From assembly GCA_030834095.1 (NCBI GenBank), contig JAURGA010000012.1, forward strand, positions 1-37,585: DNA of 37,585 nt, read 5' to 3'. The position numbers and the translations under genes were made by a program. The first letter of the stretch is position 1, and each line of letters begins with the position of its first letter. A model generated the notes under the pieces. It was given only the letters and a program-made list of their open reading frames with translations, did not search any database and was not told the DNA's origin. Shown here piece by piece: positions 19,105 to 35,688 of this stretch. Origin of the DNA: Candidatus Nanopelagicales bacterium (GTDB taxonomy: Bacteria; Actinomycetota; Actinomycetes; Nanopelagicales; Nanopelagicaceae).

Positions 19105-19859
19105 GTAGCACCGTTTACATCAAAAGTTGAGCCAGTCATCTGCTTGTTCCTACCGGAAGCAAGAAAAGCGACAAGGTTTGCAATCTCACTTGGCGGAACC
19201 CACTCGCCCATCGAAAGTGTTGCAGTAACAGCGTCCTCACCACCTAAAGACTTGGCCGATGCTTCAGACATTGCAGTTCTTACAATTCCAGGTGAGATCA
19301 AATATGCGTAGATCCCATCCTTTGCATAAGCCCGAGCAACAGTTTTCAAGAGCGCGGCAATTACTGATTTCGACGCTGCGTATCCCCCAAGTTTTGGATT
19401 CCCAGATCCACGTTGTGCCGCCCAACTTGAAATACCAATTATGTTTCCACCACCGTTTTCTAAGAAGTGAATAACTGCTTCACGAATTAGAAATGCTGGT
19501 GTAGTTGCATTTACAGCAAGTGCATCGTTCCAAGCTTTGCCCCAAACTTCGACAGGTTCTGTAATCGCTGCCTCGGGCATGATTGCGGCATTTGGAATCA
19601 AGACATCAATGCGACCCTTCCAAGCAAGGGCTTTCTGCCAAAGTTCTAAATAACTATCTGGCTGACTTAGGTCAACGCTAATCAGCAATTTGCGATCTTC
19701 AGGAATGTCTTTTGTTGCATCCTGTGCGCCTTGCGCATCTTTTCCGTAGTGTGCAACTACAAATGCTCCACATCGACCAAGGGTCGCGGCAATCTCACTA
19801 CCAATCCCTTTGGATGTGCCTGTTACTAAAATTACTTTGCCTGTTAAATCTTCGCTCAA
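19092..19859 (-). CDS. SDR-family oxidoreductase (paralogue of the 31685 gene)
   Basis: A 255-residue classical short-chain dehydrogenase. The cofactor motif is TGTSKGIG (residues 13-20). The active site has Ser near 144 (IGISSW), Tyr160 and Lys164 in GGYAASKSV. NAA is seen as PNAAIM, with Pro replacing the usual first Asn. The C-terminus reads GSTFDVNGATYIR. It has the same length, the same motif positions and nearly the same C-terminus as the gene at 31685-32452, so the two are clear paralogues at opposite ends of the cluster. The substrate is unknown, probably a hydroxy or keto intermediate of the local pathway. It is divergent from the FAD oxidoreductase gene. Confidence 0.88.
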   Translation of the reverse strand: MSEDLTGKVILVTGTSKGIGSEIAATLGRCGAFVVAHYGKDAQGAQDATKDIPEDRKLLISVDLSQPDSYLELWQKALAWKGRIDVLIPNAAIMPEAAITEPVEVWGKAWNDALAVNATTPAFLIREAVIHFLENGGGNIIGISSWAAQRGSGNPKLGGYAASKSVIAALLKTVARAYAKDGIYAYLISPGIVRTAMSEASAKSLGGEDAVTATLSMGEWVPPSEIANLVAFLASGRNKQMTGSTFDVNGATYIR

Positions 19860-19969: not shown

Positions 19970-21703
19970 GTGCGAGTCAAGGTTAAGGGCGTCGATTCTT
20001 ACGGCCCCTCTTGCACATTTGAATTTAATCAGAAAAAACTAGAGGGCGTAGTCGGTGATTCGATTGCATCGGCGCTAATAAATTCTGGTGAATATGGTCT
20101 TCGAAATACTGAGGGGTCTGAGAAGCGTGGACTCTTCTGCGGTATGGGTGTCTGCAACGAGTGCATAGTAAAAGTAAATGGTGAAGAGGGTCTGCTTGCT
20201 TGCATGACTCCGCTAAAACCAGATATGGAGATAACAAATCAGGAGCAGCATATTTCAAAACCCAACTTTGAAACTGAACCTGAATTAAATCAGCTGCCTG
20301 AAATCAAGCTCTCCCCTCATGTTCTAGTAATTGGTGGTGGGCCAGCGGGCTTGAGCGTCGCTGCAAAATTAGGAAGTGCCGGAAAGCAAGTGCTTTTAAT
20401 TGACGAACGCAAATCATCTGGTGGCCAATACTTTAAACAGCCCGCTAGTGACTTTGAAATTTCAGAGGAGAAGTTAGATTCGCAGTATCGCAAAGGTAAG
20501 GCGCTAATCAGAAAGTTTGAAGCGAGTGGTGCAAAATCAATTTTTAATATGAGAATCTGGGGTGTTTTTGGGCCAGAAAAAATCTTGGGTTATGACAGTT
20601 CAAATCGCTATGTGATCACGCCAAAGCATATTGTCATTGCAACTGGTGCTTTTGAGCGCGGGTTCGTCTTTCCGGGTTGGACTCTTCCAGGAGTTCTTAC
20701 CACTGGTGCGGGCCAGAGTTTGTTGCGCAGTTATCTGGTATCCCCTGGCAACCGAGTAGCGATTGCTGGAAACGGTCCACTAAATATGCAGTTAGCCGCA
20801 GAGTTGATTCGGGCTGGTGTAGATGTAGCTGCACTTGCTGAAAGTGCAAAGCTCTTTAAGTTAAAGAATCTAATTCTCGGTGGACTTCTCTTCCTTAGGT
20901 CCCCGAAGCTGGCTTTAACTGGTGTCGGTTATCTATACACAATCGCAAAAGCTAAAACCAAAATATTGTCAGGCCATGTTGTCGCAAGAGTCGACGGCAA
21001 AGAGGCGGTAGAGACCGTTGAATTCAAGAGATTAGATAAATCAAATTCAAAGTCTTTCAATATCGATGCCATAACAATTGGCTACGGCTTCATCCCTTCA
21101 AATGAGATTGCCCGGCTCTTAGGGTGCGCTCACGAAGTAGATGATCGTTGGAAATATCTTGGCGCAAAGAAAACACTTAATGGATCGACAAGTGTTCCCA
21201 ACGTTTGGATTGCCGGAGATGGTTCAGGTATAAATGGCGCACAGGTTGCGCAATCAAGTGGCACTCTCCTTGCGCATTCGCTGCTGGCCCAAGATGGCGC
21301 CCGAAAATCTTTATCGGACCGCGTCTCCAAATTGGTGAGTTATATCCAGCTACGAAATCAACTCGGCTTCCAGAAAGTTTTATGGAAAATATTTAGCGCC
21401 CCAGTTTTAATCGATGAATTAGCAGAAGAAGATACCGTCGTATGTCGCTGCCTAAGTATCAGTTACGCCCAAGTTAAGGCTGGAATTTCTGAAGATACGC
21501 TAAGTGCAGGTGCATCAAAGCGGATTAGCCGAGTAGGCATGGGACGCTGTCAGGGTCGTTATTGCTCACCAGTAATCCAGAAATTGATCTCTGAAAACTC
21601 TGGTTATGACATAAGTGAGCGCTCAGGTTTTGCGCCGCAAATTCCGATTAAGCCAGTCGAAATTGGCGTTGTTGCATATGCGCAAGAGAGAACGAATGAG
21701 TAG
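19970..21703 (+). CDS. Fused 2Fe-2S/FAD oxidoreductase of HcnA-HcnB (opine/hydroxyproline oxidase) type
   Basis: A 577-residue protein joining two subunits that are usually separate. Residues 1-95 form an HcnA/OoxC-like ferredoxin domain with Cys57, Cys62, Cys65 and Cys78 (CGMGVCNEC...C). From about 115 an FAD-dependent pyridine-nucleotide-type reductase domain begins with VIGGGPAGLSVAAKLGSAGK, and contains a second nucleotide site near ALAESAK. The C-terminus has a BFD-like 2Fe-2S motif with Cys492, Cys494, Cys527 and Cys532 (VCRC...GRCQGRYC). Such proteins are partners in hydrogen cyanide synthase, octopine/nopaline oxidases and D-hydroxyproline dehydrogenases, where the third subunit (HcnC, DAO fold) oxidises the substrate. 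A GTG start has AGGAG eight bases upstream. The likely catalytic partner is encoded at the right edge of the window. Substrate unknown. Confidence 0.87.
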   Translation: MRVKVKGVDSYGPSCTFEFNQKKLEGVVGDSIASALINSGEYGLRNTEGSEKRGLFCGMGVCNECIVKVNGEEGLLACMTPLKPDMEITNQEQHISKPNFETEPELNQLPEIKLSPHVLVIGGGPAGLSVAAKLGSAGKQVLLIDERKSSGGQYFKQPASDFEISEEKLDSQYRKGKALIRKFEASGAKSIFNMRIWGVFGPEKILGYDSSNRYVITPKHIVIATGAFERGFVFPGWTLPGVLTTGAGQSLLRSYLVSPGNRVAIAGNGPLNMQLAAELIRAGVDVAALAESAKLFKLKNLILGGLLFLRSPKLALTGVGYLYTIAKAKTKILSGHVVARVDGKEAVETVEFKRLDKSNSKSFNIDAITIGYGFIPSNEIARLLGCAHEVDDRWKYLGAKKTLNGSTSVPNVWIAGDGSGINGAQVAQSSGTLLAHSLLAQDGARKSLSDRVSKLVSYIQLRNQLGFQKVLWKIFSAPVLIDELAEEDTVVCRCLSISYAQVKAGISEDTLSAGASKRISRVGMGRCQGRYCSPVIQKLISENSGYDISERSGFAPQIPIKPVEIGVVAYAQERTNE

Positions 21704-21803: not shown

Positions 21804-22586
21804 ATGGACGAGAAGGAATTAGCTAGGTCCAAAGATTTCGTTCAATCTTTAGGGCGCGGCCTTTCGATCATGAAAATATTTAGCGCCGAGAATCCAAGGC
21901 TTACACTCTCTGAAGTCGCTGAATTAACCGGATATACCCGCGCAACAGCTAGAAGGTTTCTCCTAACTCTAGAATCACTTGGTTATGTCGGAAGCACTGA
22001 AAGACATTTTTACCTAAAATCTCAAGTTCTTACTCTGGGATATGCCTACTTGTCCTCCTTCAGCTTGGTCTCAATTGCGCAGATGCATCTTGAAGAATTA
22101 TCTGCGGACCTACGAGAATCCTGTTCAGCTTCGGTGTTGGAAGGTGAGAACGTAATTTATGTCTGCCGGGTTACTGCAAACCGAATTATGACGATCAACT
22201 TAGCGGTCGGAACCCAGTTGCCGGCTTATTGCACTTCCATGGGAAGAGTTCTGCTTGCATCCATGAAGCCAGCAGAAATTGATTCCTATTTCGCAAATGC
22301 CAAGTTAGAGAAGTTAACTTCAAAGACTGTCACCGATGAAGCAAAACTCCGGACAATTGTTGAACAAGTTCGCAAAAATGGTTATTCCATAGTTTCGGAT
22401 GAACTCGAGGAAGGCTTGGAATCTGTTTCCGTGCCAATTCACAGCAGAGATGGGAAAGTCCTTGCTGCTGCAAATATAAGTGCCCATGCAACCCGTGTTA
22501 GCGTCGATAAATTGCAGAACGAGTTCCTACCAAAACTCCAAAAGGCTGTAAAAGAGATAGAAAAAGCTCTTGCTATGCAATCGTAA
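21804..22586 (+). CDS. IclR-family transcriptional regulator, PcaR/PobR-like subgroup
   Basis: A 260-residue regulator. The N-terminal winged helix spans about residues 10-75, beginning SLGRGLSIMKIFSAENPRLTLSEVAELTG with recognition helix TRATARRFLLTL, and continuing LGYVGS...YLKSQVLTLGYAYLSS. The C-terminal effector domain includes SCSASVLEGENVIYVCRV, VGTQLPAYCTSMGRVLLA and ELEEGLESVSVPI. The LGYAYLSS and RIMTINLAVGTQLPAY segments are characteristic of the PcaR/PcaU/PobR subgroup that controls aromatic and beta-ketoadipate catabolism. It sits between the fused oxidoreductase and the aminotransferase genes, same direction, with GGGAG before the ATG. It is the only transcription factor in the right-hand cluster and most likely controls it; whether it activates or represses is not known. 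Confidence 0.93.
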   Translation: MDEKELARSKDFVQSLGRGLSIMKIFSAENPRLTLSEVAELTGYTRATARRFLLTLESLGYVGSTERHFYLKSQVLTLGYAYLSSFSLVSIAQMHLEELSADLRESCSASVLEGENVIYVCRVTANRIMTINLAVGTQLPAYCTSMGRVLLASMKPAEIDSYFANAKLEKLTSKTVTDEAKLRTIVEQVRKNGYSIVSDELEEGLESVSVPIHSRDGKVLAAANISAHATRVSVDKLQNEFLPKLQKAVKEIEKALAMQS

Positions 22587-22684: not shown

Positions 22685-24070
22685 ATGGGTAAAGATTCGG
22701 GACTTTCACTTACCGAAAAAGATAAAAATTTCTTCTTCCATCCATTCACGGCTCTAAAGTCGCATGCGTCAACTGGTGGACGAATTATCGTTGAAGGTAA
22801 AGGTTCGACACTTACTGATTCTGAAGGAAACAAATTACTCGATGCCATGGCTGGCTTGTGGTGTGTAAATCTTGGTTACGGCAATACTGAACTTGGGGAA
22901 GCAATTCACGACCAAGTTAAAAAGCTCTCCTACTATCACACCTTCTCTGGAATGAGCACAGATCTTGCTGCGCAACTCTCGGAGCGAATTATCAATATGT
23001 GTCCAGTGCCAATGTCAAAAGTTTTCTTCGGCAACAGCGGGTCTGATGCAAATGACACCCATGCAAAAATTATCTGGTTCTACAACAACGCACTTGGCCG
23101 TCCACAGAAAAAGAAGATTATTTCGCGCCACCGCGGTTATCACGGTGTAACCGTTCTATCTGCAGGTCTTACCGGCTTAACTAATTTGCACGAAGGCTTC
23201 GATTTGCCGCTTGACATGATTAGACATGTTCGCCCACCACATCGACTTTGGGAGAAAGCGACGGGTGCAACTGATGCTGAATTCTCACAGACTTTGGCTG
23301 ATGAACTAGAAGCAATGATTATTAAGGAAGGTCCAGACACGGTTGCGGCATTTATAGCTGAACCTGTGCAAGCTGCGGGTGGTGTGATTGTTCCACCAAG
23401 TGAATACTTCCCAGCAATTCAGAAGGTGCTTAAAAAATATGATGTTCTTCTAATTGCAGATGAAGTAGTAACTGCATTCGGACGCCTAGGAAAAATGTTT
23501 GGAACAAGCGTTGTTGGCATGGAGCCTGATTTGATGACCATTGCTAAGGGTCTGACCTCGGCATACATCCCACTTTCTGGATCAATCGTTTCTGAAAAAG
23601 TTTGGCAAGTCTTGCGCGATGGAAGCGAGAAGTACGGCGCCTTCGGTCACGGCTATACCTATTCAGCTCACCCAATTGCTGCTGCTTGTGCACTTAAAAC
23701 TTTAGAGATTGTCGAGCGCGATAACTACGTAGGTATGGCGGCTAAGAAGGGTGTTGTCTTGCATCAACTTCTACAAACTCATTTCGCAGATCATCCACTT
23801 GTTGGCGAAATTCGTGGCCAAGGTTTAATTGGCGCAGTTGAACTAGTTGCAGATCGAGATAAGCCAGAAGCATTTGATCCTTCGCTAAAGATTGCACCAA
23901 GAGTTGCTAAGCGTTCAATGGAACTTGGCGTAATTACTCGCGCCCTTCCTGCTGCGGATACCGTTGCATTTTCACCACCATTTATTGTCACTGACTCTGA
24001 ACTCGAAACTATGGTTAAAACAGTCCGCAAGGCGGTTGATGAAATAGCCAAAGAAATCGGACGCATGTAA
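22685..24070 (+). CDS. Class III (omega-amino acid) aminotransferase
   Basis: A 461-residue PLP enzyme of aminotransferase class III, the group containing putrescine-, beta-alanine-, taurine- and GABA-pyruvate transaminases. LLDAMAGLWCVNLGYG starts the fold. GNSGSDANDTHAKI (residues 116-129) binds the PLP phosphate, and RHRGYHG follows at 149-154. The Asp contacting the pyridine nitrogen is Asp259 in LIADEVVTAFGR, and the Schiff-base Lys288 is in TIAKGLTSAYIPLSG. The sequence looks closest to the SpuC-like broad omega-transaminases. It would move an amino group from a terminal amine, or from an amino acid, to pyruvate or another keto acid. It is followed 3 bp later by the AcoX-like gene and then by the GcvP-like pair, so these four genes are likely one transcript. 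Confidence 0.92.
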   Translation: MGKDSGLSLTEKDKNFFFHPFTALKSHASTGGRIIVEGKGSTLTDSEGNKLLDAMAGLWCVNLGYGNTELGEAIHDQVKKLSYYHTFSGMSTDLAAQLSERIINMCPVPMSKVFFGNSGSDANDTHAKIIWFYNNALGRPQKKKIISRHRGYHGVTVLSAGLTGLTNLHEGFDLPLDMIRHVRPPHRLWEKATGATDAEFSQTLADELEAMIIKEGPDTVAAFIAEPVQAAGGVIVPPSEYFPAIQKVLKKYDVLLIADEVVTAFGRLGKMFGTSVVGMEPDLMTIAKGLTSAYIPLSGSIVSEKVWQVLRDGSEKYGAFGHGYTYSAHPIAAACALKTLEIVERDNYVGMAAKKGVVLHQLLQTHFADHPLVGEIRGQGLIGAVELVADRDKPEAFDPSLKIAPRVAKRSMELGVITRALPAADTVAFSPPFIVTDSELETMVKTVRKAVDEIAKEIGRM

Positions 24071-24073
24071 TAA

Positions 24074-25261
24074 ATGCAAAAGCCTGGTGTTTTGAAGATT
24101 GGATTATTGATAAATCCAATCGCAGGCATGGGCGGCAAAGTTGGGCTACACGGAACTGATGATTCACTAGCCGAGCGCGCTAAAGAGCTTGGCGCAAAGA
24201 GCGCCTCAACAGAGCGCGCTGCAAGAGCAATTAAGGCCCTGCTGCCTCAAGGCGAAAAGATTTCTTTTTATGCGCCATCTAAAGCTATGGGAGCGGATTT
24301 ACTTCAATCCTTCAATATTGATTGTCAGAAAATCTACGAAACTGACAGCCTGAAAACATCTTCGGAAGATACAAAAGCGGCAGCCCTTGCCTTTCAAGCA
24401 CAGGGCGTCGATTTAATTCTCTTTGCGGGTGGAGATGGAACCGCACGGGATATCTTCTCAGTTGTTGGCGAAGCTATTCCGATCTTGGGAATTCCCGCAG
24501 GTGTAAAGATGCGAAGTGGCGTCTTTGCAAATTATCCGGAAGAAGCTGCTGAGATTATTCTGGATGCCATTGCTTCAATCGAAAGTAGCAAAGAATTAGA
24601 GTTTGCTAATACCGAGATTTTGGATCTCACGGATTCAGAGCTCGATTATTCTCAATCTCACTACTTTGGCAGTGCCAGAACTTTTTCAGCGCCAAGCAAG
24701 ATAACTAGCCCAAAGGTTAATTCCAATGCGAGCAGCGATGTTGCGCTCAAGGAGCTCGCAAAACATTTGTCATCCGAACTTGCGAAAGATCGACTCTATT
24801 TTTTTGGACCTGGCAGAAGTGCAAAATTAATCCTTAATGAATTGGGTCTCACTGATTCAGGACATTCCCTTGCTGGAGTAGATGCCCTTTTTGACGGCGA
24901 ACTCATCGGAGAGGATCTTGATGAGAGTCAGATTCTTGAGCTTATAAGTTCGCATTCAAAAGCGGCAGAGCCCTTTATATTTCTAGGCGTTATCGGCGGG
25001 CAAGGATTCTTGCTAGGCAGAGGTAACCAACAGTTGAGCCACCAGGTCATGTCACGTATTGGGGCAGATAATGCTTTTGTATTGGCGAGTGCCAGCAAAA
25101 TGACCGGAACCGTGCCGACCCGGCTTTATGTGGACTTTGAAGATGCTCTTTCCAAGAAGCTATTTCCAGATTTTATTCAAGTTCACGTTGCGAAAAATCG
25201 AACCCTAGTATGTAAAGTTGTCTCATCAGGATTTGTTCCAAATAGCGTTAAAGCCAGTTGA
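24074..25261 (+). CDS. AcoX-like / NAD-kinase-fold protein (COG3199 type)
   Basis: A 395-residue protein of the predicted ATP-NAD kinase family that includes AcoX of acetoin catabolism. The N-terminal signature KIGLLINPIAGMGGKVGLHGTD is nearly diagnostic. The kinase loop GGDGTARD occurs at residues 119-126. A downstream segment with LGIPAGVKMRSGVFA also fits the family. The C-terminal half includes a GGQGFLLGRGNQQLS motif. The biochemical role of AcoX has not been firmly set, as far as I know; the NAD-kinase loop predicts binding of ATP and a nucleotide or small polyol substrate. No ribosome-binding site is seen, and the start is 3 bp after the aminotransferase stop, so translation is probably coupled. 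Its setting beside a GcvP-like pair rather than acetoin dehydrogenase is the interesting point. Confidence 0.85.
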   Translation: MQKPGVLKIGLLINPIAGMGGKVGLHGTDDSLAERAKELGAKSASTERAARAIKALLPQGEKISFYAPSKAMGADLLQSFNIDCQKIYETDSLKTSSEDTKAAALAFQAQGVDLILFAGGDGTARDIFSVVGEAIPILGIPAGVKMRSGVFANYPEEAAEIILDAIASIESSKELEFANTEILDLTDSELDYSQSHYFGSARTFSAPSKITSPKVNSNASSDVALKELAKHLSSELAKDRLYFFGPGRSAKLILNELGLTDSGHSLAGVDALFDGELIGEDLDESQILELISSHSKAAEPFIFLGVIGGQGFLLGRGNQQLSHQVMSRIGADNAFVLASASKMTGTVPTRLYVDFEDALSKKLFPDFIQVHVAKNRTLVCKVVSSGFVPNSVKAS

Positions 25262-25291: not shown

Positions 25292-26707
25292 ATGGAGAAG
25301 AATAAGGATTTGCCGACACCACATCCTTTTATGGCGAACTCCGCGGAGGCGAGCTTCAATGAAATGCTAAAGGTTGCAAATGTAACCGACATTGACGAAT
25401 TATTTGAGCAGATTCCAAAAGATCATGTTTTCAAGGGCGACTGGAATTTCGATCCACAAATTCCCTCCGAAGCTGCGCTCTACAAGCATCTAACGAGAAT
25501 TCTTAGAAAGAACTCATCTGCCGAAGAAAACTTAAATTTCCTTGGTGCGGGTTGTTGGCAACATTACGTTCCAGCAATTTGTGATGAAATGGTCACAAGA
25601 ACTGAATTCCTGACTCCGGTTTGGGGAACTCCATCTTCTGATCACGGTCGAAATCAAGTCTGGTTTGAATTCCAGAGCCAGATTGGTGAATTAGTAGGAA
25701 TGGAATTCGTTGGGCTACCGCTCTACAGCTTTGGAACAGCCGGTGGTCACGCAATTCGAATGGCAGCACGAATCAATAAGCGCAGCAAAGTATTGGTTCA
25801 ATCTTCAATTGACCCTGAACGTCTTGCAGTTTTCAAAACTTACTGCGGTTACCCAGAATTAGATGGTTATCTTGAAATCGTCATGGTCGATATAGATGCA
25901 AAAACTGGACGCATAAACCTTGATGATCTAAAGGCAAAGATTTCAAAAGATGTCTCTTCGCTCTACTTCGACAATCCAAATTATCTAGGAGTCATTGAAA
26001 GCGAAGCTAAAGAGATAGCGAAAATTGCCCACGATGCTGGCGCAGAGGTAATCATTGGTGTTGATCCAATCTCACTTGGCGTCCTGCCGTCCCCGAGCGA
26101 ATATGGCGCAGACATTGTGGTTGGCACGACTCAACCAATGGGTGTTCACATGAATGCTGGTGGTGGCGTAGGTGGATTCATCGCCACAAGAGATGATGAA
26201 AAATATGCCCACGAGTATCCAACTCTGCAAGTAAGTTTGACCGGAACTTCCGAGCCAGGTGAAATGGCATTTGGTCTAACCCTCTTCGAACAATCTTCAT
26301 ACGGATCTAGAGAGCACGGTAAAGATTGGACTGGTAACTCGGTCTATCTCTGGACTGTTGCAAATGCGACTTACATGTCACTACTTGGACCAAATGGTTT
26401 TGCAGAAATTGGTAAGACAATTCTGCAACGCAGCCACTACGCAGCAAAGAAGCTTGCTGAGATTCCAGGAATCTCTGTGACTTGGCCATCAGGTTTCTTC
26501 AAAGAGTTCGTAGTCAATTTTGATGGCACAAAGAAAAAAGTATCTGAAATAAATAAATCACTTCTATCAAAGAAGATTTTTGGTGGAAAAGATCTCTCTG
26601 GAGACTTCCCGCATTTAGGACAATCTGCGCTTTACTGTGTAACCGAGATTCATACCTTGGAGGATTTAGATTCCTTAGTTTCTGCAATAAAGGAGGTAAC
26701 AAAATGA
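25292..26707 (+). CDS. Divergent glycine dehydrogenase subunit 1-like PLP-fold protein (GcvPA-like)
   Basis: A 471-residue protein of the GcvP N-terminal (subunit alpha) family; canonical GcvPA is about 450. Conserved backbone features remain: NLNFLGAGCWQHYVPAICDEMVTRTEF near residues 83-110, FEFQSQIGELVGMEFVGLPLYS, SVSSLYFDNPNYLGVIE-type strand, EVIIGVDPISLGVLPSPSEYGADIVVG, then GVGGFIATRDDE. Signature segments differ: canonical YTPYQPEISQG is replaced by LTPVWGTPSSDHGRNQ, and the DGAT segment by SFGTAGG. This subunit lacks the PLP lysine, as is normal. The stop overlaps the GcvPB-like start by 4 bp (ATGA), so a heterodimer is expected. No gcvH, gcvT or lpd is nearby, so it is unlikely to belong to the normal glycine cleavage system. 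Reaction unknown. Confidence 0.82.
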   Translation: MEKNKDLPTPHPFMANSAEASFNEMLKVANVTDIDELFEQIPKDHVFKGDWNFDPQIPSEAALYKHLTRILRKNSSAEENLNFLGAGCWQHYVPAICDEMVTRTEFLTPVWGTPSSDHGRNQVWFEFQSQIGELVGMEFVGLPLYSFGTAGGHAIRMAARINKRSKVLVQSSIDPERLAVFKTYCGYPELDGYLEIVMVDIDAKTGRINLDDLKAKISKDVSSLYFDNPNYLGVIESEAKEIAKIAHDAGAEVIIGVDPISLGVLPSPSEYGADIVVGTTQPMGVHMNAGGGVGGFIATRDDEKYAHEYPTLQVSLTGTSEPGEMAFGLTLFEQSSYGSREHGKDWTGNSVYLWTVANATYMSLLGPNGFAEIGKTILQRSHYAAKKLAEIPGISVTWPSGFFKEFVVNFDGTKKKVSEINKSLLSKKIFGGKDLSGDFPHLGQSALYCVTEIHTLEDLDSLVSAIKEVTK

Positions 26708-28260
26708 TTAAGTCAAAGATTCGTAAGTATCACGCCCCGGTTTGGGATGAGCCCCTTGTTATGCAGATGGGCCAGAGCGGTCGCCGCGGATCAATTGCGC
26801 CGAAGACTGAGTCAAAAATTGCTGACACTGTTGGCAACGCTCTAGATCTGCTGCCTGCAGGCATGAAGCGAGCTAATCCCCTAAATCTTCCCGAACTATC
26901 CGAGTTTGAAGTTCAACGTCATTATTTACATCTGTCCCAACAAACTCTGGGAATGATGGGAATCAGCTTGTTCGGAACTTGCACAATGAAATACAACCCA
27001 AGAGTTAATGAGCGAATTGTTTACCAACCATTCGTAGCTGAAATGCACCCTCATCAAGATCCAGAAACAATGCAGGGAATCTTGGAAGTTGTTAATCGCT
27101 TTGATCACTTGCTTCGCAAGTTATCGGGTCTAGATAAGTTCGTATTCCAAGCAGGAGGTGGCGCAGATGCTGCTTACACTCAAGCTTGTATGACTCGGGC
27201 ATATCACGCATCACGTGGTGAACTCGAGCAACGAAATGAAATCATCACTACTGCGCAAGCACACCCATGCAATCCAGCTACTGCAGCTGCTGCCGGCTTT
27301 AAAATAATCACGCTGCCTCTTGAAGATGACGGTTTTCCTTCAGTCGAAGCGCTAAAGGCTGTAGTTTCCAATCGCACTGCTGCTTTGATGGTAAATAATC
27401 CAGACGATATCGGAATCTACAATCCACATATCAAAGAGTGGGTAAAGATTGTTCATGATGCTGGCGGGCTATGTTTCTATGACCACGCTAATTTCAACGG
27501 TGTTATGACTCGTATTCGCGCAGCTGATATTGGTTTCGATGCCTGTATGTATATGTTGCATAAGACATTCGGTGGACCTAAGGGTGGTGGCGGCCCTGCC
27601 GTCGGTGCTTATGGATGTAACGAAAAATTGATTCCATTCCTAGCTGGTCCAACCGTCGAGACAAATGCTGATGGCAGCTTCTACCTTAAAGAAGGTGGCG
27701 AAAATAGCGTTGGCCGAATCCGCGAATTCTTAGGAAACATTCCAACAGTTATTCGCGCTTATTCATGGACCAGATCTATGGGCATAGAAGGTCTGCGCGA
27801 TGCTGCAAATATTTCAGTTCTTGCCAACAACTATATGGAGAAAAGACTCCTTGAAATTCCTGGAATCACAAAAGGTATGCCTGATGTAAAGGGTCGCCGT
27901 CTAGAGATGACTCGATACAGCTTGGGTGAACTAACTGCGGATACCGGAGTCTCCTGCTTCGATGTTCAGAATCGGATGACCGATTACGGAGTTGATGCTT
28001 ATTGGTTAAGCCACGAACCATGGTTTATTCCAGAACCATTTACACCTGAAGCTGGTGAATTGTGGTCGGTAGAAGATATCGATTATTGGATTGATGTTCT
28101 TGAAACAGTCTGTAATGAAGCAAGAACTAATCCAGAGTTAGTCAAGACTTCACCACATAACCAGGTTGTTCACAAGCAGAATTCAACGAACTTGAGCGAT
28201 CCTGCTAAGTGGGCGACCACCTGGCGCGCGTACAAGCGCAAATACGGAGTCACTAATTGA
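26704..28260 (+). CDS. Divergent glycine dehydrogenase subunit 2-like PLP enzyme (GcvPB-like)
   Basis: A 518-residue catalytic partner of the preceding gene. The PLP lysine is Lys287 in MLHKTFGGPKGGGGP, identical in layout to GcvP. Asp260, which contacts the pyridine nitrogen, is kept but in DHAN rather than canonical DGAN. The ring-stacking His187 is kept but in QAHPCNPATA rather than SAHGTNPAS. GTCTMKYNPRVNE at 91-103 matches the GcvPB glycine-loop region. A C-terminal segment (residues 440-518) includes an unusual tail, HNQVVHKQNSTNLSDPAKWATTW. The combination of a preserved PLP scaffold and altered substrate-loop residues argues for a decarboxylase or lyase acting on an amino acid other than glycine, or with a different acceptor than lipoyl-GcvH. 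This is inference; no substrate can be named. Confidence 0.85.
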   Translation: MIKSKIRKYHAPVWDEPLVMQMGQSGRRGSIAPKTESKIADTVGNALDLLPAGMKRANPLNLPELSEFEVQRHYLHLSQQTLGMMGISLFGTCTMKYNPRVNERIVYQPFVAEMHPHQDPETMQGILEVVNRFDHLLRKLSGLDKFVFQAGGGADAAYTQACMTRAYHASRGELEQRNEIITTAQAHPCNPATAAAAGFKIITLPLEDDGFPSVEALKAVVSNRTAALMVNNPDDIGIYNPHIKEWVKIVHDAGGLCFYDHANFNGVMTRIRAADIGFDACMYMLHKTFGGPKGGGGPAVGAYGCNEKLIPFLAGPTVETNADGSFYLKEGGENSVGRIREFLGNIPTVIRAYSWTRSMGIEGLRDAANISVLANNYMEKRLLEIPGITKGMPDVKGRRLEMTRYSLGELTADTGVSCFDVQNRMTDYGVDAYWLSHEPWFIPEPFTPEAGELWSVEDIDYWIDVLETVCNEARTNPELVKTSPHNQVVHKQNSTNLSDPAKWATTWRAYKRKYGVTN

Positions 28261-28277: not shown

Positions 28278-29219
28278 TTGTCTGATCTTAAGTTTTCCAT
28301 AATTGGGTCAGGCAGTATTGGCATCGGCTGGGCCATTGTCTTTGCCCGCGCTGGTTACAAAGTAAAGGTTTACGATATTGAAGAATCTGCCCTACGCAAC
28401 TTTGAAAACCAAGTAAAAAACCGCCTTGAATTACTTGATGCCAATAAGTTGCTCACAAATTCCCCTAAGAAAATTGCGGCAAGAATTAAGACAACTCTGG
28501 ACCTAACCGACGCAGTATCCGATGCGGATTTTGTTCAAGAGTGTGGTCCAGAAAACCTTGAGATCAAACGAGAGTTATTTACGAAACTGGCAAACTTAGC
28601 CAAATCTGATGCAATTATCGCTAGCTCTTCATCTGCGCTGCGCCCAAGTGAATTCGCTTCGAATATTGCAAGCAATGAGAGATGTCTGGTCGTTCACCCA
28701 GGTAATCCGCCTTATTTAATTTCAATTGCTGAAGTTGTTCCAGCAGAATTTACATCCGAAGAAGCAATAAAAACTTGTATAGATCTTCTGACTAAGGTTG
28801 GGATTATTCCAATTCGGGTTAACAACGAACCCCAGGGTTTTGTTTTCAATCGACTACAAGGCGCAATTTTGCGAGAGGCTTATTGTTTAGTGCGAGATGG
28901 CGTCATATCGCCAACAGATTTAGATTTGATCGTTACAGAAGGTTTAGGTAAACGCTGGTCGATTGTTGGGCCGTTCGCTACATCGGCGCTAAATGTTCGT
29001 GGCGGGATCAAAGCGCACGTAGCGCGAATGGGTAAGAGTTATTTTGAAATGGGCAGAGAACGTGGCCAGAACGATCCTTGGGATGGAGCGCTAGTGGAGC
29101 GCGTTGCAGCTGATATCGAAAGCAAATTGCCCGATGCTAAATGGGAGAAAAATACCCAGAAGCGCGATCTTGCACTTATGAAATTGACTAAGTTATTTGA
29201 AAAAGTAATCAAGCCCTAA
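28278..29219 (+). CDS. 3-hydroxyacyl-CoA dehydrogenase family protein, lambda-crystallin/L-gulonate 3-dehydrogenase-like
   Basis: A 313-residue NAD-dependent dehydrogenase. The Rossmann motif is GSGSIGIGWA (residues 10-19), with Asp33 (VYDIEE) favouring NAD over NADP. SSSSALRPSEFA occupies about 117-127. The catalytic His140 is in VVHPGNPPYLISIAEVVP, and the partner Glu152 is present. The HPxNPPYL form and single-domain size (about 310 residues) match lambda-crystallin, L-gulonate 3-dehydrogenase and carnitine dehydrogenase rather than the beta-oxidation FadB type. The free 3-hydroxy acid, rather than a CoA ester, may therefore be the substrate. The TTG start has AGAGG seven bases upstream. 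The gene ends one base from the convergent CoA-transferase gene. Confidence 0.87.
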   Translation: MSDLKFSIIGSGSIGIGWAIVFARAGYKVKVYDIEESALRNFENQVKNRLELLDANKLLTNSPKKIAARIKTTLDLTDAVSDADFVQECGPENLEIKRELFTKLANLAKSDAIIASSSSALRPSEFASNIASNERCLVVHPGNPPYLISIAEVVPAEFTSEEAIKTCIDLLTKVGIIPIRVNNEPQGFVFNRLQGAILREAYCLVRDGVISPTDLDLIVTEGLGKRWSIVGPFATSALNVRGGIKAHVARMGKSYFEMGRERGQNDPWDGALVERVAADIESKLPDAKWEKNTQKRDLALMKLTKLFEKVIKP

Positions 29220-29220
29220 A

Positions 29221-29994
29221 TTATTTATCGGATGTGCTCACCAGAGCGCGGACTTTCTCAAGTTCTGATTGTTCTGGCGCCTTAGTAGTCTTTAGATTTG
29301 GCGAAACCTTTAATTCCCAACCAGTATTTTCAATAGCCTGATCTATATCAACACCTGGATGTAGATATGTCATTGTCAGCTCTAAAGTTTCTGGATCTGG
29401 TTCTAAAATTCCTAGGTCGGTAATAACTCGACTTGGACCACCGCCACGTAATCTATTTTTCGCTCTTGAGCCAGGACCTTCGCCAAAGCCCATTGAGGTT
29501 ATGAAATCAACCTGCTTTACAAATGTTCTGGTTGTCTGACGAATAATTATTGCGACCTCTTTACAAGAAGCTGCGATCTCAGTTGCTCCTCCGGCTCCAG
29601 GCAAGCGAACTTTTGGCGAATCATAAGTTTGCCCAATGAAAGTCGTATTTATATTTGCAAATTTATCAATCTGAGCTGCACCTAAAAATCCAACATCAAT
29701 CCGGCCAGATTGCAGCCAGTAATTAAAGATTTCTGGCATACTAACAACAGTAAGTGCATGGTTGGCTAATTCGCCATCACCAATTGACAGTGGCAATTTT
29801 TGTGGGTTTGTATTGACTGTGCCAGATTCGTAAATCAGAAAGAGATTTGGGGCTTGCATCGACTTAGCGAGAATCGCTGCAGTGCTGGGAATACCGATAC
29901 CGACAAAGCAGGTATTTCCATCTTTAAGTGTTCGGGCAGCTGCGATTGTCATCATTTCATCTGCAGTCCAGGTGGAATTCAAGTTTTCACTCAT
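29221..29994 (-). CDS. CoA-transferase subunit B, CatJ-type (3-oxoadipate/glutaconate family)
   Basis: A 257-residue beta subunit of a family I CoA-transferase. CFVGIGIPSTAA (residues 29-40) is the GxGxPxxAA oxyanion element. The catalytic glutamate is Glu56 in LIYESGTV. LSIGDGELANHALTVVSMPEIFNYWLQSGRIDVGFLGAAQIDKFANINTT is typical of the family. The likeness to CatJ of the beta-ketoadipate pathway is strong, but related enzymes use glutaconate and other dicarboxylic or branched acids. It overlaps the end of the subunit A gene by 1 bp (TAATG), so the pair is co-translated. It is convergent, with a one-base gap, to the 3-hydroxyacyl-CoA dehydrogenase gene. Confidence 0.9.
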   Translation of the reverse strand: MSENLNSTWTADEMMTIAAARTLKDGNTCFVGIGIPSTAAILAKSMQAPNLFLIYESGTVNTNPQKLPLSIGDGELANHALTVVSMPEIFNYWLQSGRIDVGFLGAAQIDKFANINTTFIGQTYDSPKVRLPGAGGATEIAASCKEVAIIIRQTTRTFVKQVDFITSMGFGEGPGSRAKNRLRGGGPSRVITDLGILEPDPETLELTMTYLHPGVDIDQAIENTGWELKVSPNLKTTKAPEQSELEKVRALVSTSDK

Positions 29995-30821
29995 TACTTC
30001 TTACCTGCCGTGCTCTTGCTATAGATCTCGTCATCCAACCATTTACTAAAGATCTCTCGCTCTTTTGAAATCTCATCCCAGGCAATATATTGATTATTAT
30101 CGCGCTCGTAAAAATCTGATGCATAGGATGGCCAAGCACCATTTGGAACAACTGAGATCGCATCGATCAAGTTACTTGGAATAATCATTGAACTGAACTT
30201 AGGTGAGAATTTTTCGACTACCTCTTCGACGGTAACAATTACTTTAGACGCGGCAAATACCGCTTCCTTTGCAACACCTGTAATCCCCCACATCATTACA
30301 TTGCCAGCTTTATCAGCTTGCTGAGCATGAAGAATTGTTACATCAGGATTTATGGCTGCTACAGCTGTCAGAACTTCATCTGAGAAAGGCGATTTAACTT
30401 CTGAAACGTTCTTTGTGTGCTCTCCCAAATCCGACCCTGAATAACCCTTGAGAACTGCGAAACCAATTCCTGAAGCACCAGCAACATATCTGTTTGTTAG
30501 ACCGGCATGTGTGTGCTCTTCAATTTCGATCTTATTTGGCCAGCCATTTTGATAGGCATCTCGGAAGCGATGTAGCGAACCAACGCCGGGATTTCCGCCC
30601 CAAGAGAAAATCAGTTTCTTAATGCAGCCAGCGCCAATCATTTGATCATAAATTAAATCTGGCGTTAAGCGAACCGCGGTTAAGTCCTTAACCTTCTGGC
30701 GGATGATTTCATGGCCTGCTGCAAATGGAATCAGGTGAGTGAAGCCCTCCATGGCTATGAGGTCGCCACTTTTCACATAACTCTCTATCGCTTGGGGTAG
30801 CTCTAGAAATTTTGACACCAT
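29994..30821 (-). CDS. CoA-transferase subunit A, CatI-type (3-oxoadipate/glutaconate family)
   Basis: A 275-residue alpha subunit. It contains GDLIAMEGFTHLIPFAAGHEIIRQ near residues 18-41, LTPDLIYDQMIGAGCIKKLIFSWGGNPGVGSLHRFRDA, HTHAGLTNRYVAGASGIGFAVLKGYSGSDL, and VTILHAQQADKAGNVMMWGITGVAKEA. These match the CatI/GctA family closely, nearest to my recollection of the Pseudomonas B13 3-oxoadipate CoA-transferase. The enzyme would move CoA from succinyl- or acetyl-CoA to an organic acid made by the pathway. No ring-cleavage gene is in the window, so a non-aromatic source of the acid is likely. GGAG precedes the ATG by four bases. It is divergent from the SDR at 30922. Confidence 0.9.
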   Translation of the reverse strand: MVSKFLELPQAIESYVKSGDLIAMEGFTHLIPFAAGHEIIRQKVKDLTAVRLTPDLIYDQMIGAGCIKKLIFSWGGNPGVGSLHRFRDAYQNGWPNKIEIEEHTHAGLTNRYVAGASGIGFAVLKGYSGSDLGEHTKNVSEVKSPFSDEVLTAVAAINPDVTILHAQQADKAGNVMMWGITGVAKEAVFAASKVIVTVEEVVEKFSPKFSSMIIPSNLIDAISVVPNGAWPSYASDFYERDNNQYIAWDEISKEREIFSKWLDDEIYSKSTAGKK

Positions 30822-30921: not shown

Positions 30922-31683
30922 ATGACGCACAGCAATATGGCTACAAATATGGCTAATAAAATAGCTGTTGTAACCGGTGGTTCATCTGGCATTGGATCCG
31001 CAATTGTTAACAGATTTGTTATAAATGGCGCACAGGTAATTTCAATTGATTTAAAGAAACCTGAATTTGAAATTGGAACTGTCCAACATTTCGACTGCGA
31101 TTTGACCGATGCGAACGCGGTTTCGCAGGTGTTCGAAGAGATTGCAAAGCTGCACCCTCAAATTGACGTTTTATGCGCCAATGCTGGAATAGTGCCGGCC
31201 TGGAGCCGCATCGCTGAAACAAATTTTAGTGACTGGAAAAAAGTCATTGATATCAATGTGAATGCGCTCTTCCTGACTATTTTACACGGCGCAAAGTTAT
31301 TGAGAAAAGGTTCTGGAACAGTCGTTGTTACCGGTTCCATAAACTCGATAAAGGGTGATCCCAATATCGCTTCTTATGTTGCGAGCAAACATGCTGCTCT
31401 TGGGATTATAAAGGCAGCCGCACTAGACCTTGGGCAAGATGGAATTAGAGTAAACGGGGTCGCACCTGGTCCCATCGCAACCAAGGCGCTGATTTCAAGA
31501 ATCGAAAAACGATTGGCGGACACCAACGGTACGCTCGATGACTATTTGGCAAAAATTGCAGACCAAACTGCACTTGGCAGAATTGCAACCGAGGAAGAAG
31601 TCATAAACACAATAGAATTCCTGGCTCTTGAACTTTCATCAGGAATTACCGGTCAATTAATTTCAGTAGATTGCGGAGCATAA
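30922..31683 (+). CDS. SDR-family oxidoreductase
   Basis: A 253-residue classical short-chain dehydrogenase. The cofactor motif is TGGSSGIG (residues 18-25). Asp43 in ISIDLKKP suggests NAD preference. CANAG (86-89) replaces NNAG. The active site is Ser139 region (TGSINS), Tyr152 and Lys156 in SYVASKHAALG. VNGVAPGPIATKAL and the C-terminal LISVDCGA complete the fold. AGGAG is five bases ahead of the ATG. It is not a close paralogue of the other two SDRs. The next SDR starts one base after its stop, so they form a two-gene operon. Substrate unknown. Confidence 0.9.
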   Translation: MTHSNMATNMANKIAVVTGGSSGIGSAIVNRFVINGAQVISIDLKKPEFEIGTVQHFDCDLTDANAVSQVFEEIAKLHPQIDVLCANAGIVPAWSRIAETNFSDWKKVIDINVNALFLTILHGAKLLRKGSGTVVVTGSINSIKGDPNIASYVASKHAALGIIKAAALDLGQDGIRVNGVAPGPIATKALISRIEKRLADTNGTLDDYLAKIADQTALGRIATEEEVINTIEFLALELSSGITGQLISVDCGA

Positions 31684-31684
31684 A

Positions 31685-32452
31685 ATGAGTTATGACTTAA
31701 CCGGAAAGACAGCGCTAGTCACTGGAGCATCTAGAGGCATAGGTGCAGCTGCTGCTCTTTCACTAGCTTCAGCTGGTGCACATGTAATTTCTCACTACAG
31801 TTCTTTTAGCGAAGGTGCAATTGAAAACTTAGCTGATATTCCTGAATCTCGAAAAACTTTCATCAAAGAAGATCTTTCAATTCCAGGATCGGGCAGAACC
31901 CTTTGGCAGAAGTCAATTGCCGCCGTGCCAAAAATAGATATTTTTGTAAATAATGCAGCCGTCAATATTGAAACACCATTCGAAGGAACGGCAGAAGTTT
32001 GGGATAAGGGCTGGGCTGATACCTTTGCAATAAATGTTTTTGAAGCTGCAAATATCATGAAGGAAGCGGTTGAGCATTTTCGTAAAATCGAAGGCGGCGT
32101 CATCATTTCGATGTCTAGCTGGTCGGGACAACGTGGATCAGCGCTTCCAACACTGCCGGCTTATGCAGCGTCTAAAGCAGCCGTGAAAGCGTTGACGCAG
32201 ACTATTGCAAAGAACTTTGCCAGAGAGGGCGTCCTGGCCTACATAATCTCCCCGGGAATAGTTAAGACTCGAATGTCAGATTTAGCAGCAGTTGTTCGAG
32301 GTGGCGAAGAGGCTATGAAATCTCAACTTGTAATGGGTGAACTAGTTAAACCAGAAGAACTTGGTGAGCTTATTGTTTTTCTCTCATCAGGGTCATGCCG
32401 ACATTTAACTGGTTCAACAATTGATGTAAATGGTGCTTCTTATATCCGTTAA
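31685..32452 (+). CDS. SDR-family oxidoreductase (paralogue of the 19092 gene)
   Basis: A 255-residue short-chain dehydrogenase. The cofactor motif is TGASRGIG (13-20), the NNAA strand is at 89-92, and the active site is Ser144-145 region (SMSSW), Tyr160 and Lys164 (PAYAASKAAV). The C-terminus is GSTIDVNGASYIR. Length, motif positions, the LYxxLxxDIPE segment (DIPESRK here, DIPEDRK in the other) and the C-terminus match the SDR at 19092-19859, pointing to an old duplication with both copies kept at the two ends of the metabolic cluster. GGAG within the previous gene's end serves as ribosome-binding site. It may act on an intermediate related to that of its paralogue. Confidence 0.9.
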   Translation: MSYDLTGKTALVTGASRGIGAAAALSLASAGAHVISHYSSFSEGAIENLADIPESRKTFIKEDLSIPGSGRTLWQKSIAAVPKIDIFVNNAAVNIETPFEGTAEVWDKGWADTFAINVFEAANIMKEAVEHFRKIEGGVIISMSSWSGQRGSALPTLPAYAASKAAVKALTQTIAKNFAREGVLAYIISPGIVKTRMSDLAAVVRGGEEAMKSQLVMGELVKPEELGELIVFLSSGSCRHLTGSTIDVNGASYIR

Positions 32453-32473: not shown

Positions 32474-32929
32474 TTATTTTCTACCATTCGAATGCATAGT
32501 GTTTCTATGAAAATCTTGCATCCCAACACCAAAGAGTTTTAAACTTTTTATAAGCCAAACTCCCTCAATCTTTGCAAACTCGTGTTCATATCCGCCCCAG
32601 AGATGGCCAATTTCTTCCTTATTGTGATATTTGTGCCAGGCGTAAAGATATGAAGTTGATTTGGCAGAGTCATCACTTTGAAGAGTAATCACTAAGTTTG
32701 AGATGTGATGGCTGGTAGCTAAGAAGGTTTCTGATAAACCTTTTGACACCATTTCAAGAATCTTATTTCGTCCTACCAAATTAGCTACCTCGGGGCCGTA
32801 ATCAACAACTGCGCCCTCTGCAAAGAGCGCGGCTAAATCTTCTGGCATATTTCGATCGAAGTAATAGCAGTATCTATAAACAAGTTCTTCAATGGTCTGT
32901 CGGTCAAGTTGAGAATCTGCTGTATTCAT
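32474..32929 (-). CDS. SnoaL-like (NTF2-fold) protein
   Basis: A 151-residue protein with the alpha+beta-barrel pattern of the SnoaL-like family. The opening helices IEELVYRYCYYFDRNMPEDLAALFAEGAVVDYG are typical. It continues with ILEMVSKGL, TSHHISNLVITLQSDDSAKSTSYLYAWHKYHN, and YEHEFAKIEGVWLIKSLKLFG. Members include steroid isomerases, dehydratases and many binding proteins; His-containing strand SHHISN may line the pocket. The start is placed at ATG 32929 because AGAGGA lies about ten bases upstream; a longer frame to 33004 would extend into the promoter region without a better site. It is convergent with the SDR pair and divergent from the importer operon. The substrate is unknown. Confidence 0.75.
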   Translation of the reverse strand: MNTADSQLDRQTIEELVYRYCYYFDRNMPEDLAALFAEGAVVDYGPEVANLVGRNKILEMVSKGLSETFLATSHHISNLVITLQSDDSAKSTSYLYAWHKYHNKEEIGHLWGGYEHEFAKIEGVWLIKSLKLFGVGMQDFHRNTMHSNGRK

Positions 32930-33084
32930 TCCACTAGGTTCCTCTAGATTGACAGAAATATCTAGCGCCTGATTCATGCGGCGCCCAGCGAGCATTGTTC
33001 GCAATGAGAACTACCGAGCAGTAAGAATAAAAAAGTTATTATTTTGTAACCATTTCCCCTGTTAAGTACGGAACTTTCATGTAA

Positions 33085-33141: not shown

Positions 33142-33909
33142 GTGCCAACTAGCTCAAATAACGAAGTACTGATGGAGCTTTCTGGAGTTCGTAAAACTTT
33201 TGGCACTATCGAAGTTTTACATGGAATTGATTTACAGATAAGTAAGGGAAGTCATGCAGTAATTTTTGGTCCTTCTGGTTCTGGTAAATCAACCGTCCTG
33301 CGTTGTATGAATTTACTAGAGGAACCTCAAGAAGGTTCTATTAAATTTCTAGGAACCGAATATGGCCCAGGCAATGGTAAGGATGATGTGAAGCGTGGCA
33401 AGCCAATTGAATTAAGAAGAAAAGTTGGAATGGTTTTTCAACAATTCAATTTGTTCCCTCATCTTTCCGCGATTGATAATCTTGCGCTCCCGTATCGATC
33501 TATTCGCGGTGGGTCAGTTCAAGAAGCTCAAGAACGAGCTGCGCATGAACTAAATAAAGTTGGTCTCTTGAAATTCGCCACAAACTATCCTTCACAGCTC
33601 TCTGGTGGTCAGCAACAACGGGTTGCAATCGCTCGTGCGCTGAGTCTTGATCCAGAATTAATGTTATTTGATGAACCAACCTCTGCTCTGGATCCAGAAC
33701 TGGTAGGTGAAGTTCTGGCGGTAATGCGCCAACTAGCTGAATCAGGAATGACAATGGTAGTTGTGACACACGAAATGAACTTTGCGCGGGAAATAGGAGA
33801 TCTAAACGTCTTTATGGAAGCGGGAAATATAGTCGCCACTGGCGGGTCAGACTTCTTTGAGAATTGCACAAACCAACGTGCTCAGGAGTTTATTGGATCA
33901 GTTCTATGA
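33142..33909 (+). CDS. Amino-acid ABC transporter, ATP-binding protein
   Basis: A 255-residue nucleotide-binding subunit of the polar-amino-acid importer family (GlnQ/HisP type). Walker A is GPSGSGKST (residues 43-51), the Q-loop is in GMVFQQFNLFPHLSA, the signature is LSGGQQQRVAIARAL, Walker B is LMLFDEPTSALDPE, and the switch His is in VVVTHEMNFA. It has an insertion GPGNGKDDVKRGK between the first two motifs. A GTG start lies 11 bases after AAGGG. The stop overlaps the permease start (ATGA), so ATPase, permease and binding protein form one operon. It likely feeds the nearby catabolic genes. Confidence 0.95.
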   Translation: MPTSSNNEVLMELSGVRKTFGTIEVLHGIDLQISKGSHAVIFGPSGSGKSTVLRCMNLLEEPQEGSIKFLGTEYGPGNGKDDVKRGKPIELRRKVGMVFQQFNLFPHLSAIDNLALPYRSIRGGSVQEAQERAAHELNKVGLLKFATNYPSQLSGGQQQRVAIARALSLDPELMLFDEPTSALDPELVGEVLAVMRQLAESGMTMVVVTHEMNFAREIGDLNVFMEAGNIVATGGSDFFENCTNQRAQEFIGSVL

Positions 33910-34667
33910 TGCGCAGAGAAGAAGAGGGCGTTGCGCCAATTAACTTTATGTGGCACCTGGTCTGGGATTTCAAATGGGATCTCTTTAAGGGCCTTTTAAC
34001 AGCAGTCAACGTTTCGATTGCTGCTCTAATTCTTTCCATGGTAATTGGAATGATTTTCGCCTTGGCGCGGATGAGTCGATTTAAAGTCTTCTCAATATTT
34101 GCAACTGTTTATGTAAATATCTTTCGTGGTATTCCAGCTCTTGTGAGTGTGATCTGGGTTTATTTTGGTTGGTCCTTGCTATTTGGTCATAACTTCACCG
34201 TCTATCAAGCCGGTGTGATTGCTTTGACCCTTCTTTACTCCTCTTTCTTCTGCGAAATTTTCAGATCCGCACTTCAGGCAATCCATAAGGGACAGCGCGA
34301 AGCCGGAATGGCACTCGGGCTTACCCGAGGAAGAATCTTTAGATCAATTATGTTGCCACAGGCAACAAAGATTGCGATTCCAAATATTGGCAGCATGTAT
34401 ATCGGAATGATCAAAGATACCTCGACCTTTGCCATCATCGGGATGGTTGAAGTGGTTCGCGTTACTCAAAATTTGAACTCAACATACTTCCAGCCTTTCG
34501 TTCTTTACACCGCAGCAGCCGGACTTTATGTAGTCATCGCTTTCTTAGTTGACTTTATTTTCAGAAATGTAGAGCTCAATTTCTCATATCCGCCGCAAGG
34601 CCGAATCGCTAAATTTCTCAGCCGGAAAAAGAAGAAGAGGGTCGAAGGGTTGATGAAATCAACCTGA
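33906..34667 (+). CDS. Amino-acid ABC transporter, permease
   Basis: A 253-residue HisM/GlnP-type permease with about five membrane segments, for example AVNVSIAALILSMVIGMIFALA and the segments around VSVIWVYFGWSLLF and VIALTLLYSSFFCEIF. The EAA-loop is present as REAGMALGLTRGRIFRSIMLPQA, the contact site for the ATPase. The start is placed at ATG 33906, overlapping the ATPase stop. An upstream in-frame start at 33864 would add 14 residues from inside the ATPase gene and is not preferred. Only one permease gene is present, so the transporter may be a homodimer. The charged C-terminal tail ends in SRKKKKRVEG. Confidence 0.93.
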   Translation: MMRREEEGVAPINFMWHLVWDFKWDLFKGLLTAVNVSIAALILSMVIGMIFALARMSRFKVFSIFATVYVNIFRGIPALVSVIWVYFGWSLLFGHNFTVYQAGVIALTLLYSSFFCEIFRSALQAIHKGQREAGMALGLTRGRIFRSIMLPQATKIAIPNIGSMYIGMIKDTSTFAIIGMVEVVRVTQNLNSTYFQPFVLYTAAAGLYVVIAFLVDFIFRNVELNFSYPPQGRIAKFLSRKKKKRVEGLMKST

Positions 34668-34727
34668 TGATCTTCAATTTCCGGAGGAGAAAGCCCGGGA
34701 CGTCCCAAACAAATGAAAGGTAATCAA

Positions 34728-35638: not shown

Positions 35639-35688
35639 TCTTAATTAGGGTGCGAAAAATTGCGAGATAAGTGGAAGGATTTCAACTG

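Follow-up and report, generated by a model that had tools for sequence, protein, structure and literature searches.

Two adjacent genes in the stretch of DNA analysed here (the window: 37,585 nucleotides of contig JAURGA010000012.1 from a Candidatus Nanopelagicales bacterium) encode proteins that resemble the alpha and beta subunits of glycine decarboxylase (P-protein) and are called PA and PB below. The pair belongs to the P-protein superfamily, within which it and its relatives form a family that is well supported as separate from the canonical P-proteins. It is linked to a kinase-like protein and to catabolic genes for uptake, amine-oxidising flavoenzymes or a class III aminotransferase, dehydrogenases and CoA activation. 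Membership of the “glycine decarboxylase” functional family is unsupported, since the canonical active-site loop, H-protein-facing segment and association with gcvT/gcvH were not found. Tentatively, and with a confidence somewhat below even, the pair is predicted to be a pyridoxal 5'-phosphate (PLP) decarboxylase-type enzyme of a catabolic cluster, acting outside the glycine cleavage system. The pair and its partner are as follows:

24074..25261, + strand: ATP-NAD kinase/AcoX-like predicted small-molecule kinase (395 aa; Pfam NAD_kinase 81.3 bits, DAGK_cat)
25292-26707, + strand: GcvPA-like alpha subunit, PA (471 aa; NCBIfam GcvPA 431.8 bits, Pfam GDC-P 176 bits)
26704-28260, + strand: GcvPB-like beta subunit, PB (518 aa, PLP Lys287; NCBIfam GcvPB 488.6 bits)

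A P-protein-like pair

The PA and PB frames lie on the same strand and overlap by 4 bases. An earlier account of this DNA, made from its letters alone (the sequence-only reading), had proposed that the two subunits keep the P-protein fold and the PLP lysine while their signature segments differ, and both parts are borne out. The alpha-chain model matches 1wyt_A with Z 46.1, the beta chain is matched to 1wyt_B at E 7e-99 with a family profile, and alignment identifies Lys287 of the beta chain as the PLP lysine, the counterpart of Thermus thermophilus beta Lys266. Every altered segment quoted in that reading is found in the two open reading frames (ORFs): LTPVWGTPSSDHGRNQ in the alpha chain, and QAHPCNPAT, DHAN and HKTF, which includes Lys287, in the beta chain. 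Both chains pass the NCBIfam equivalog cut-offs (431.8 against 364 bits for GcvPA; 488.6 against 441 for GcvPB), while the Pfam score for the alpha chain is just 176 bits. Because these models accept both chains, annotation pipelines call them glycine dehydrogenase, and relatives are recorded under the same names in plasmid entries.

The pair forms a separate family

One scan of GTDB species genomes gave 249 relatives of the beta chain, and the family is not peculiar to the window. Eight further relatives, 51-61% identical, are plasmid-borne; their hosts are Rhodococcus, Sphingomonas, Rhodobacterales and the haloarchaeon Natronosalvus. Beyond these 8 the identity falls to about 36%, and those matches are canonical. 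The spread of the family is patchy, with 5 copies in 4 of 60 relatives from the window's own genus or family. The loci compared were the best 80 of the 249 relatives, the 8 plasmid loci and the window, 89 in all.

Quick maximum-likelihood trees were made from 65 alpha and 67 beta rows; these are unrooted, and some canonical rows are long-branched. The 36 family members make up one side of a branch whose support in the Shimodaira–Hasegawa-like approximate likelihood ratio test (SH-aLRT) is 100 in the alpha tree and 99 in the beta tree. Next to the family comes a sister lineage (loci L143 and L014, described at the end) and then a very long stem, of 1.36 and 2.1 changes per site in the alpha and beta trees respectively. 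A clade apart from canonical P-proteins, which the sequence-only reading had envisaged, was thus recovered. Since the trees are unrooted, an origin from a two-subunit canonical glycine decarboxylase is possible, and the family may have arisen in this way. The sequence differences are not due to chance, as they are fixed or nearly fixed in 88-89 sequences from Actinomycetota, Pseudomonadota and one haloarchaeon.

Two diverged copies of the three-gene set occur in one related genome (L008 and L012, on G034:C28 and G034:C75), with PB 82-83% identical to that of the window. Two loci from metagenome-assembled genome records titled Bifidobacterium breve (L025, L027) have PB 98% and 90% identical to the window; their organism labels look wrong, the window's relatives being small-genome actinobacteria. 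A locus on a plasmid of Deinococcus sp. QL22 (L137) was rejected as a member, as its loop is of the canonical type and it falls with the canonical enzymes in the trees; its pair is without gcvT/gcvH and adjoins genes for a class III aminotransferase and a MOSC protein.

Canonical glycine cleavage genes in the carrier genomes

As first described, no gcvT, gcvH or lpd lies near the pair in the window, and a class III aminotransferase and the ATP-NAD-kinase/AcoX-like protein are encoded upstream. No gcvT or gcvH adjoins the pair in the 91 loci examined. The second, canonical set for which the sequence-only reading had proposed a search is present elsewhere in the window genome: a fused gcvP of 957 aa (530.9 bits) shares contig C21 with gcvH, and gcvT is on contig C3. 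Across 29 carrier genomes the PF02347 scores are bimodal, at 130-182 bits for the pair and 380-608 for canonical N-terminal halves or GcvPA; one score lies between the modes (206 bits) and belongs to a sister-lineage member. Canonical GcvP is present in 28 of the 29 genomes and GcvH in all 29. The PF02347 search found no canonical GcvP in carrier G498, a genome of unestablished completeness.

The only GcvT-like match among the family loci is a 778-aa ORF (L045:19191-21527) around 9 kb from the pair, whose C-terminal half resembles GcvT and sarcosine oxidase alpha (soxA).

Active-site and H-protein-facing residues

A joint alignment compared 88 family with 37 canonical alpha chains, and 89 family with 38 canonical beta chains; residues are numbered as in T. 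thermophilus alpha and beta. The canonical alpha loop TxYTPYQxE has Tyr95, Tyr98 and Glu101 in 36/36 chains, and its YTPY motif is gone from every family member. Tyr95 is changed, to Val in 76 of the 88; Tyr98 falls in a gap in all 88, the exact placement of the gap in this short loop being aligner-dependent; and Glu is not among the listed family states at Glu101. Human Tyr161 and Tyr164, which were equated with Tyr95 and Tyr98 by motif matching, are classed as active-site residues with disease mutations (PMC7259800). From a docking model, human Arg373 and Lys376, in the segment QTREQHIRRxKATSN, are predicted to contact H-protein (PMC7259800). The corresponding canonical positions are Arg311 (Arg in 36/36) and Lys314 (Lys or Arg in 36/36); in the family the former is mostly Ser, Leu, Met or Ala, the latter is Glu, Asp or Asn in 56 of 88 chains, and the segment becomes xQSSYGxRExGKDWTGN.

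The PLP site of the beta chain is intact, with Lys266, Asp239, His166, Asn242 and His265 in 89/89 sequences, and most of the glycine-rich loop is retained. Other beta positions are fixed or nearly fixed differently in the family: Glu136, Gly167, Thr214, Tyr237, His261, Asn263, His272, Tyr333, His375, Glu376 and His400, the changes including Glu136 to Ala, Thr214 to Asp, His272 to Lys, His375 to Glu and Glu376 to Met. In the single-chain alpha model, confidence is low at loops 109-115 and 333-338, which are the active-site loop and the H-protein-facing segment. The structural neighbours of this model include aldolase-type and decarboxylase enzymes.

The kinase-like gene is a near-obligate partner of the pair

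Neighbours were counted from clustered open frames at all 89 loci, the window being one of them. Wherever both PA and PB could be read (88 loci), the two genes adjoin. Spurious antisense ORFs (clusters 14, 20 and probably 29, which were disregarded) hid some PA, PB and kinase-like genes, and the kinase-like gene was therefore recounted by tblastn. It is present in 85 of the 89 loci, 74 by clustering and 11 by tblastn, 3 or 4 of these being cut by contig ends. The sequence-only reading had listed the AcoX-like gene just among the neighbours; of all the partners of the pair it is the most constant. In nearly all loci it lies next to PA, usually ending within about 130 bases of it on the same strand, or divergent from it. 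The loci outside the 85 are L072, L084, the truncated L073 and Natronosalvus. In Natronosalvus the plasmid that bears the pair has the gene at a distance of about 56 kb, surrounded by genes for a class III aminotransferase, a dihydrodipicolinate synthase (DHDPS)-family protein, a short-chain dehydrogenase/reductase (SDR) and a CoA-transferase, the same neighbour set as in the window. Furthermore, among 59 relatives searched for both genes, the kinase-like gene occurs in exactly the 3 that carry PB; the probability of this by chance is about 3e-5 if the two were independent, a figure that ignores shared ancestry.

The motifs GGDGT (52 sequences), GxKMxS and GRGN are invariant in the kinase-like family. 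In the kinase model (pLDDT 87) the N-terminal domain matches NAD kinase and diacylglycerol kinase at Z of about 11.7 over around 145 residues, with unrelated proteins tied. A Foldseek search with the model returned nothing below E 0.001, and no PDB sequence match was obtained for the family.

The surrounding catabolic cluster

The remaining genes of the window cluster are as follows:

19092..19859, - strand: SDR-family dehydrogenase (cluster 5, 41 loci)
19970..21703, + strand: 2Fe-2S/FAD oxidoreductase, sarcosine-oxidase-alpha/proline-dehydrogenase-like subunit (Pfam Fer2_4, Pyr_redox_2; PDB 1y56_A; cluster 6, 39 loci)
21804..22586, + strand: IclR-family regulator, PcaR/PcaU/PobR subfamily (NCBIfam TIGR02431, 321 bits; cluster 9, 38 loci)
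22685..24070, + strand: class III (omega-amine/4-aminobutyrate (GABA)-type) aminotransferase (Pfam Aminotran_3; nearest PDB entries named 4-aminobutyrate transaminase; 28/89 loci)
28278..29219, + strand: 3-hydroxyacyl-CoA dehydrogenase-family protein, lambda-crystallin type (NCBIfam PRK06129, 382 bits; best PDB match lambda-crystallin; cluster 3, 50/89 loci)
29221..29994, - strand: CoA-transferase subunit B (Pfam CoA_trans, 135 bits; cluster 22, 12 loci)
29994..30821, - strand: CoA-transferase subunit A (Pfam CoA_trans, 74 bits; cluster 21, 12 loci)
30922..31683, + strand: SDR-family dehydrogenase (cluster 4, 42 loci)
31685..32452, + strand: SDR-family dehydrogenase (NCBIfam SDR matches; cluster 5)
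32474..33004, - strand: SnoaL-like domain protein (Pfam SnoaL_4, 96 bits; cluster 24, 10 loci)
33142..35552, + strand: ABC importer (ATPase 33142-33909, permease 33864-34667, binding protein 34713-35552)
35671-37125, + strand: second FAD oxidoreductase (ORF), followed by the start of a further FAD-dependent oxidoreductase from 37112 to the contig end

The importer clusters (7, 13 and 16) occur in 38, 18 and 15 loci. Sequence features, rather than a family match, suggest an importer of the polar amino-acid type; the binding protein had no NCBIfam match at 1e-30. 2Fe-2S/FAD and DAO-type subunits resembling sarcosine oxidase or proline dehydrogenase were counted in 39 and 38 loci, and in the close relative L025 cluster 6 is followed by the DAO-type cluster 8, parallel to 35671-37585 of the window. 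The window cluster has two different 2Fe-2S/FAD oxidoreductase subunits (19970-21703 and 35671-37125).

An amine-handling enzyme is encoded in 60 of the 75 longer loci. A succinic semialdehyde dehydrogenase (SSADH)-like gene is present in 25 loci, in 16 of them together with the class III aminotransferase, and DHDPS-family lyases are found in 32 overall. In Gemmobacter, genes for a copper amine oxidase, an amino-acid permease and an acyl-CoA synthetase adjoin the pair. A diaminopimelate-decarboxylase-like gene lies between SDR and DHDPS-family genes in Mesorhizobium (L067:13087-14514). Routes for glycine betaine, hydroxyproline, opines and D-lysine were considered from the neighbour set, and none fits all loci.

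Discussion

The suggestion of the sequence-only reading that the pair has another substrate or acceptor stands in part: the clade, the separate canonical system and the residues give good support to the view that it is not an ordinary glycine-cleavage P-protein, while the other amino acid or acceptor is something that we still infer. As the scaffold and PLP site are common to both, the same external aldimine and quinonoid chemistry would be expected as in P-protein; the missing tyrosine loop and missing predicted H-protein contacts point to another substrate and acceptor. An aminotransferase or amine oxidase recurs, with aldehyde oxidation as the next step, which suggests that an amine leaves the enzyme, and hence simple decarboxylation of a non-glycine amino acid. 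In such a scheme PLP on Lys287 would bind a non-glycine amino acid, either imported or freed from an imported N-substituted amine by the flavoenzymes, and the alpha-carboxylate would leave as CO2, as in the P-protein half reaction; the carbanion would then be protonated and the amine released, in place of attack on lipoyl-H. The amine could be converted to an aldehyde by the class III aminotransferase, or by the copper amine oxidase in Gemmobacter, and the aldehyde oxidised further through the SSADH-like, SDR and lambda-crystallin-type dehydrogenases and the CoA-transferase. The least certain step is that of the kinase, which probably phosphorylates either a hydroxyl group on the substrate or product or else a cofactor, and may act before or after decarboxylation.

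Several observations weigh against this scheme. The NCBIfam equivalog models accept the chains as GcvPA and GcvPB, and the presence of GcvH in every carrier genome tested makes use of lipoyl-H in trans possible. The H-protein-interface residues are those predicted by the docking model (PMC7259800), and the altered active-site loop is modelled with low confidence in the single alpha chain. Further, one Mesorhizobium cluster already has a decarboxylase-like gene, and since the aminotransferase is found in only 28/89 loci and the SSADH-like gene in only 25, amine formation is not required by every locus.

Alternatively, PA-PB could decarboxylate an amino acid, possibly glycine, with the carbanion attacking an aldehyde, a ketone or a phosphorylated small molecule prepared by the kinase. 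This we consider doubtful; the near-strict kinase linkage (85/89 loci, and the same relatives) would be consistent with it, as would the rewriting of the H-protein-facing segment to a new conserved motif, GxRExGKDWTGN, rather than its mere loss, and AcoX also accompanies the lipoyl/thiamine pyrophosphate (TPP) C-C-cleaving acetoin dehydrogenase operon (PMC6722718). However, the cluster context is catabolic and no candidate acceptor was identified. It is likewise doubtful, though conceivable, that a P-protein-fold enzyme acts here with a dedicated AcoX-like kinase and without lipoyl-H, in decarboxylation, or in C-C bond formation coupled to it, on a substrate that is phosphorylated or activated by the kinase. 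We know of no such kinase-dependent reaction type for the P-protein fold. No description of a GcvP-like, lipoyl-independent or NADK-linked enzyme of this kind was found in the literature searched, which is weak evidence of absence as the search covered few subscription journals.

It is unlikely that decarboxylation has been lost in favour of a different reaction at C-alpha, with the P-protein scaffold now serving retro-aldol cleavage, deamination or transamination. Such a change could account for the replacement of canonical-invariant residues near PLP or the lipoyl path (beta Glu136, Thr214, His272, His375 and Glu376); fold type I scaffolds host many reactions, and aldolase-type enzymes are among the neighbours of the alpha model. 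On the other hand, His166, Asp239, Lys266 and most of the glycine-rich loop are retained, and every characterised two-subunit relative decarboxylates.

Less credence still is given to an ordinary isoenzyme of glycine decarboxylase, served in trans by the GcvH that the genome encodes. The equivalog scores and the 29/29 genomes with GcvH would allow it, and the sarcosine-oxidase-like flavoenzymes of the cluster could release glycine, but essentially all members differ from canonical enzymes at both active-site tyrosines and at the predicted H-protein contacts, the clade is separate, canonical GcvP is already present, and the constant tie is to the kinase rather than to gcvT/gcvH. A non-catalytic or degenerate paralogue, either a pseudo-enzyme or a regulatory subunit pair, might explain the patchy distribution and changed catalytic-site residues, yet it is very improbable, since all 89 sequences preserve the PLP lysine and the cofactor residues, and the window's beta chain remains around 51-61% identical to those of distant phyla, which argues for selection for catalysis.

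The non-glycine decarboxylase proposed here can be set beside three known systems. Like the two-subunit GcvPA/GcvPB of T. thermophilus (1WYT/1WYU), the pair is a predicted heterodimer from overlapping genes with the same fold, PLP lysine, most PLP-site residues and glycine-rich loop; it differs in the rewritten YTPY(Q)xE loop with Tyr98 deleted, the replaced H-protein-facing segment, the many canonical-invariant beta residues changed, its own clade, and the lack of gcvT/gcvH neighbours. GABA and omega-amino acid modules share the class III aminotransferase and SSADH-like dehydrogenase that recur beside the pair; known GABA pathways use other decarboxylases, and the link to a P-protein-like pair is new, though not universal. 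The product of 24074-25261 has superfamily-level likeness to AcoX of acetoin operons, where a predicted NADK/DAGK-like protein is also co-transcribed with a C-C-cleaving enzyme (PMC6722718), but here it is paired with a PLP P-protein-like enzyme and not with TPP acetoin dehydrogenase.

Since annotation models name these genes glycine dehydrogenase, metabolic reconstructions may credit many soil, marine and freshwater bacteria with a glycine cleavage capacity that is not used. To our knowledge, glycine decarboxylation is the only well-known job of the P-protein family; if the proposal is correct, the pair would be a non-lipoyl branch of a textbook family and would give the long-unexplained AcoX/ATP-NAD-kinase family its first defined genetic partner. 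Carriers include culturable hosts such as Rhodococcus jostii RHA1, on its plasmid pRHL1, and Mesorhizobium, and the three adjacent genes make the proposal testable.

A sister lineage

Loci L143 (G497:C1:8500-17500) and L014 represent a second divergent P-protein lineage, sister to the family, with PA-PB (or PB), the loop YAGEPYEDHGRFQ and its own adjoining AcoX/NADK-like gene. It shares with the window family this adjoining gene, the absence of alpha Tyr98, and the beta changes Thr214 to Asp, His375 to Glu and Tyr333 to Trp; it differs in keeping alpha Tyr95 and beta His261, Asn263, His272 and His400, and in its separate branch. In Salinibacterium (L143) a GH42-like gene adjoins the sister-lineage pair, and the same genome also has a window-type pair and canonical GcvP.

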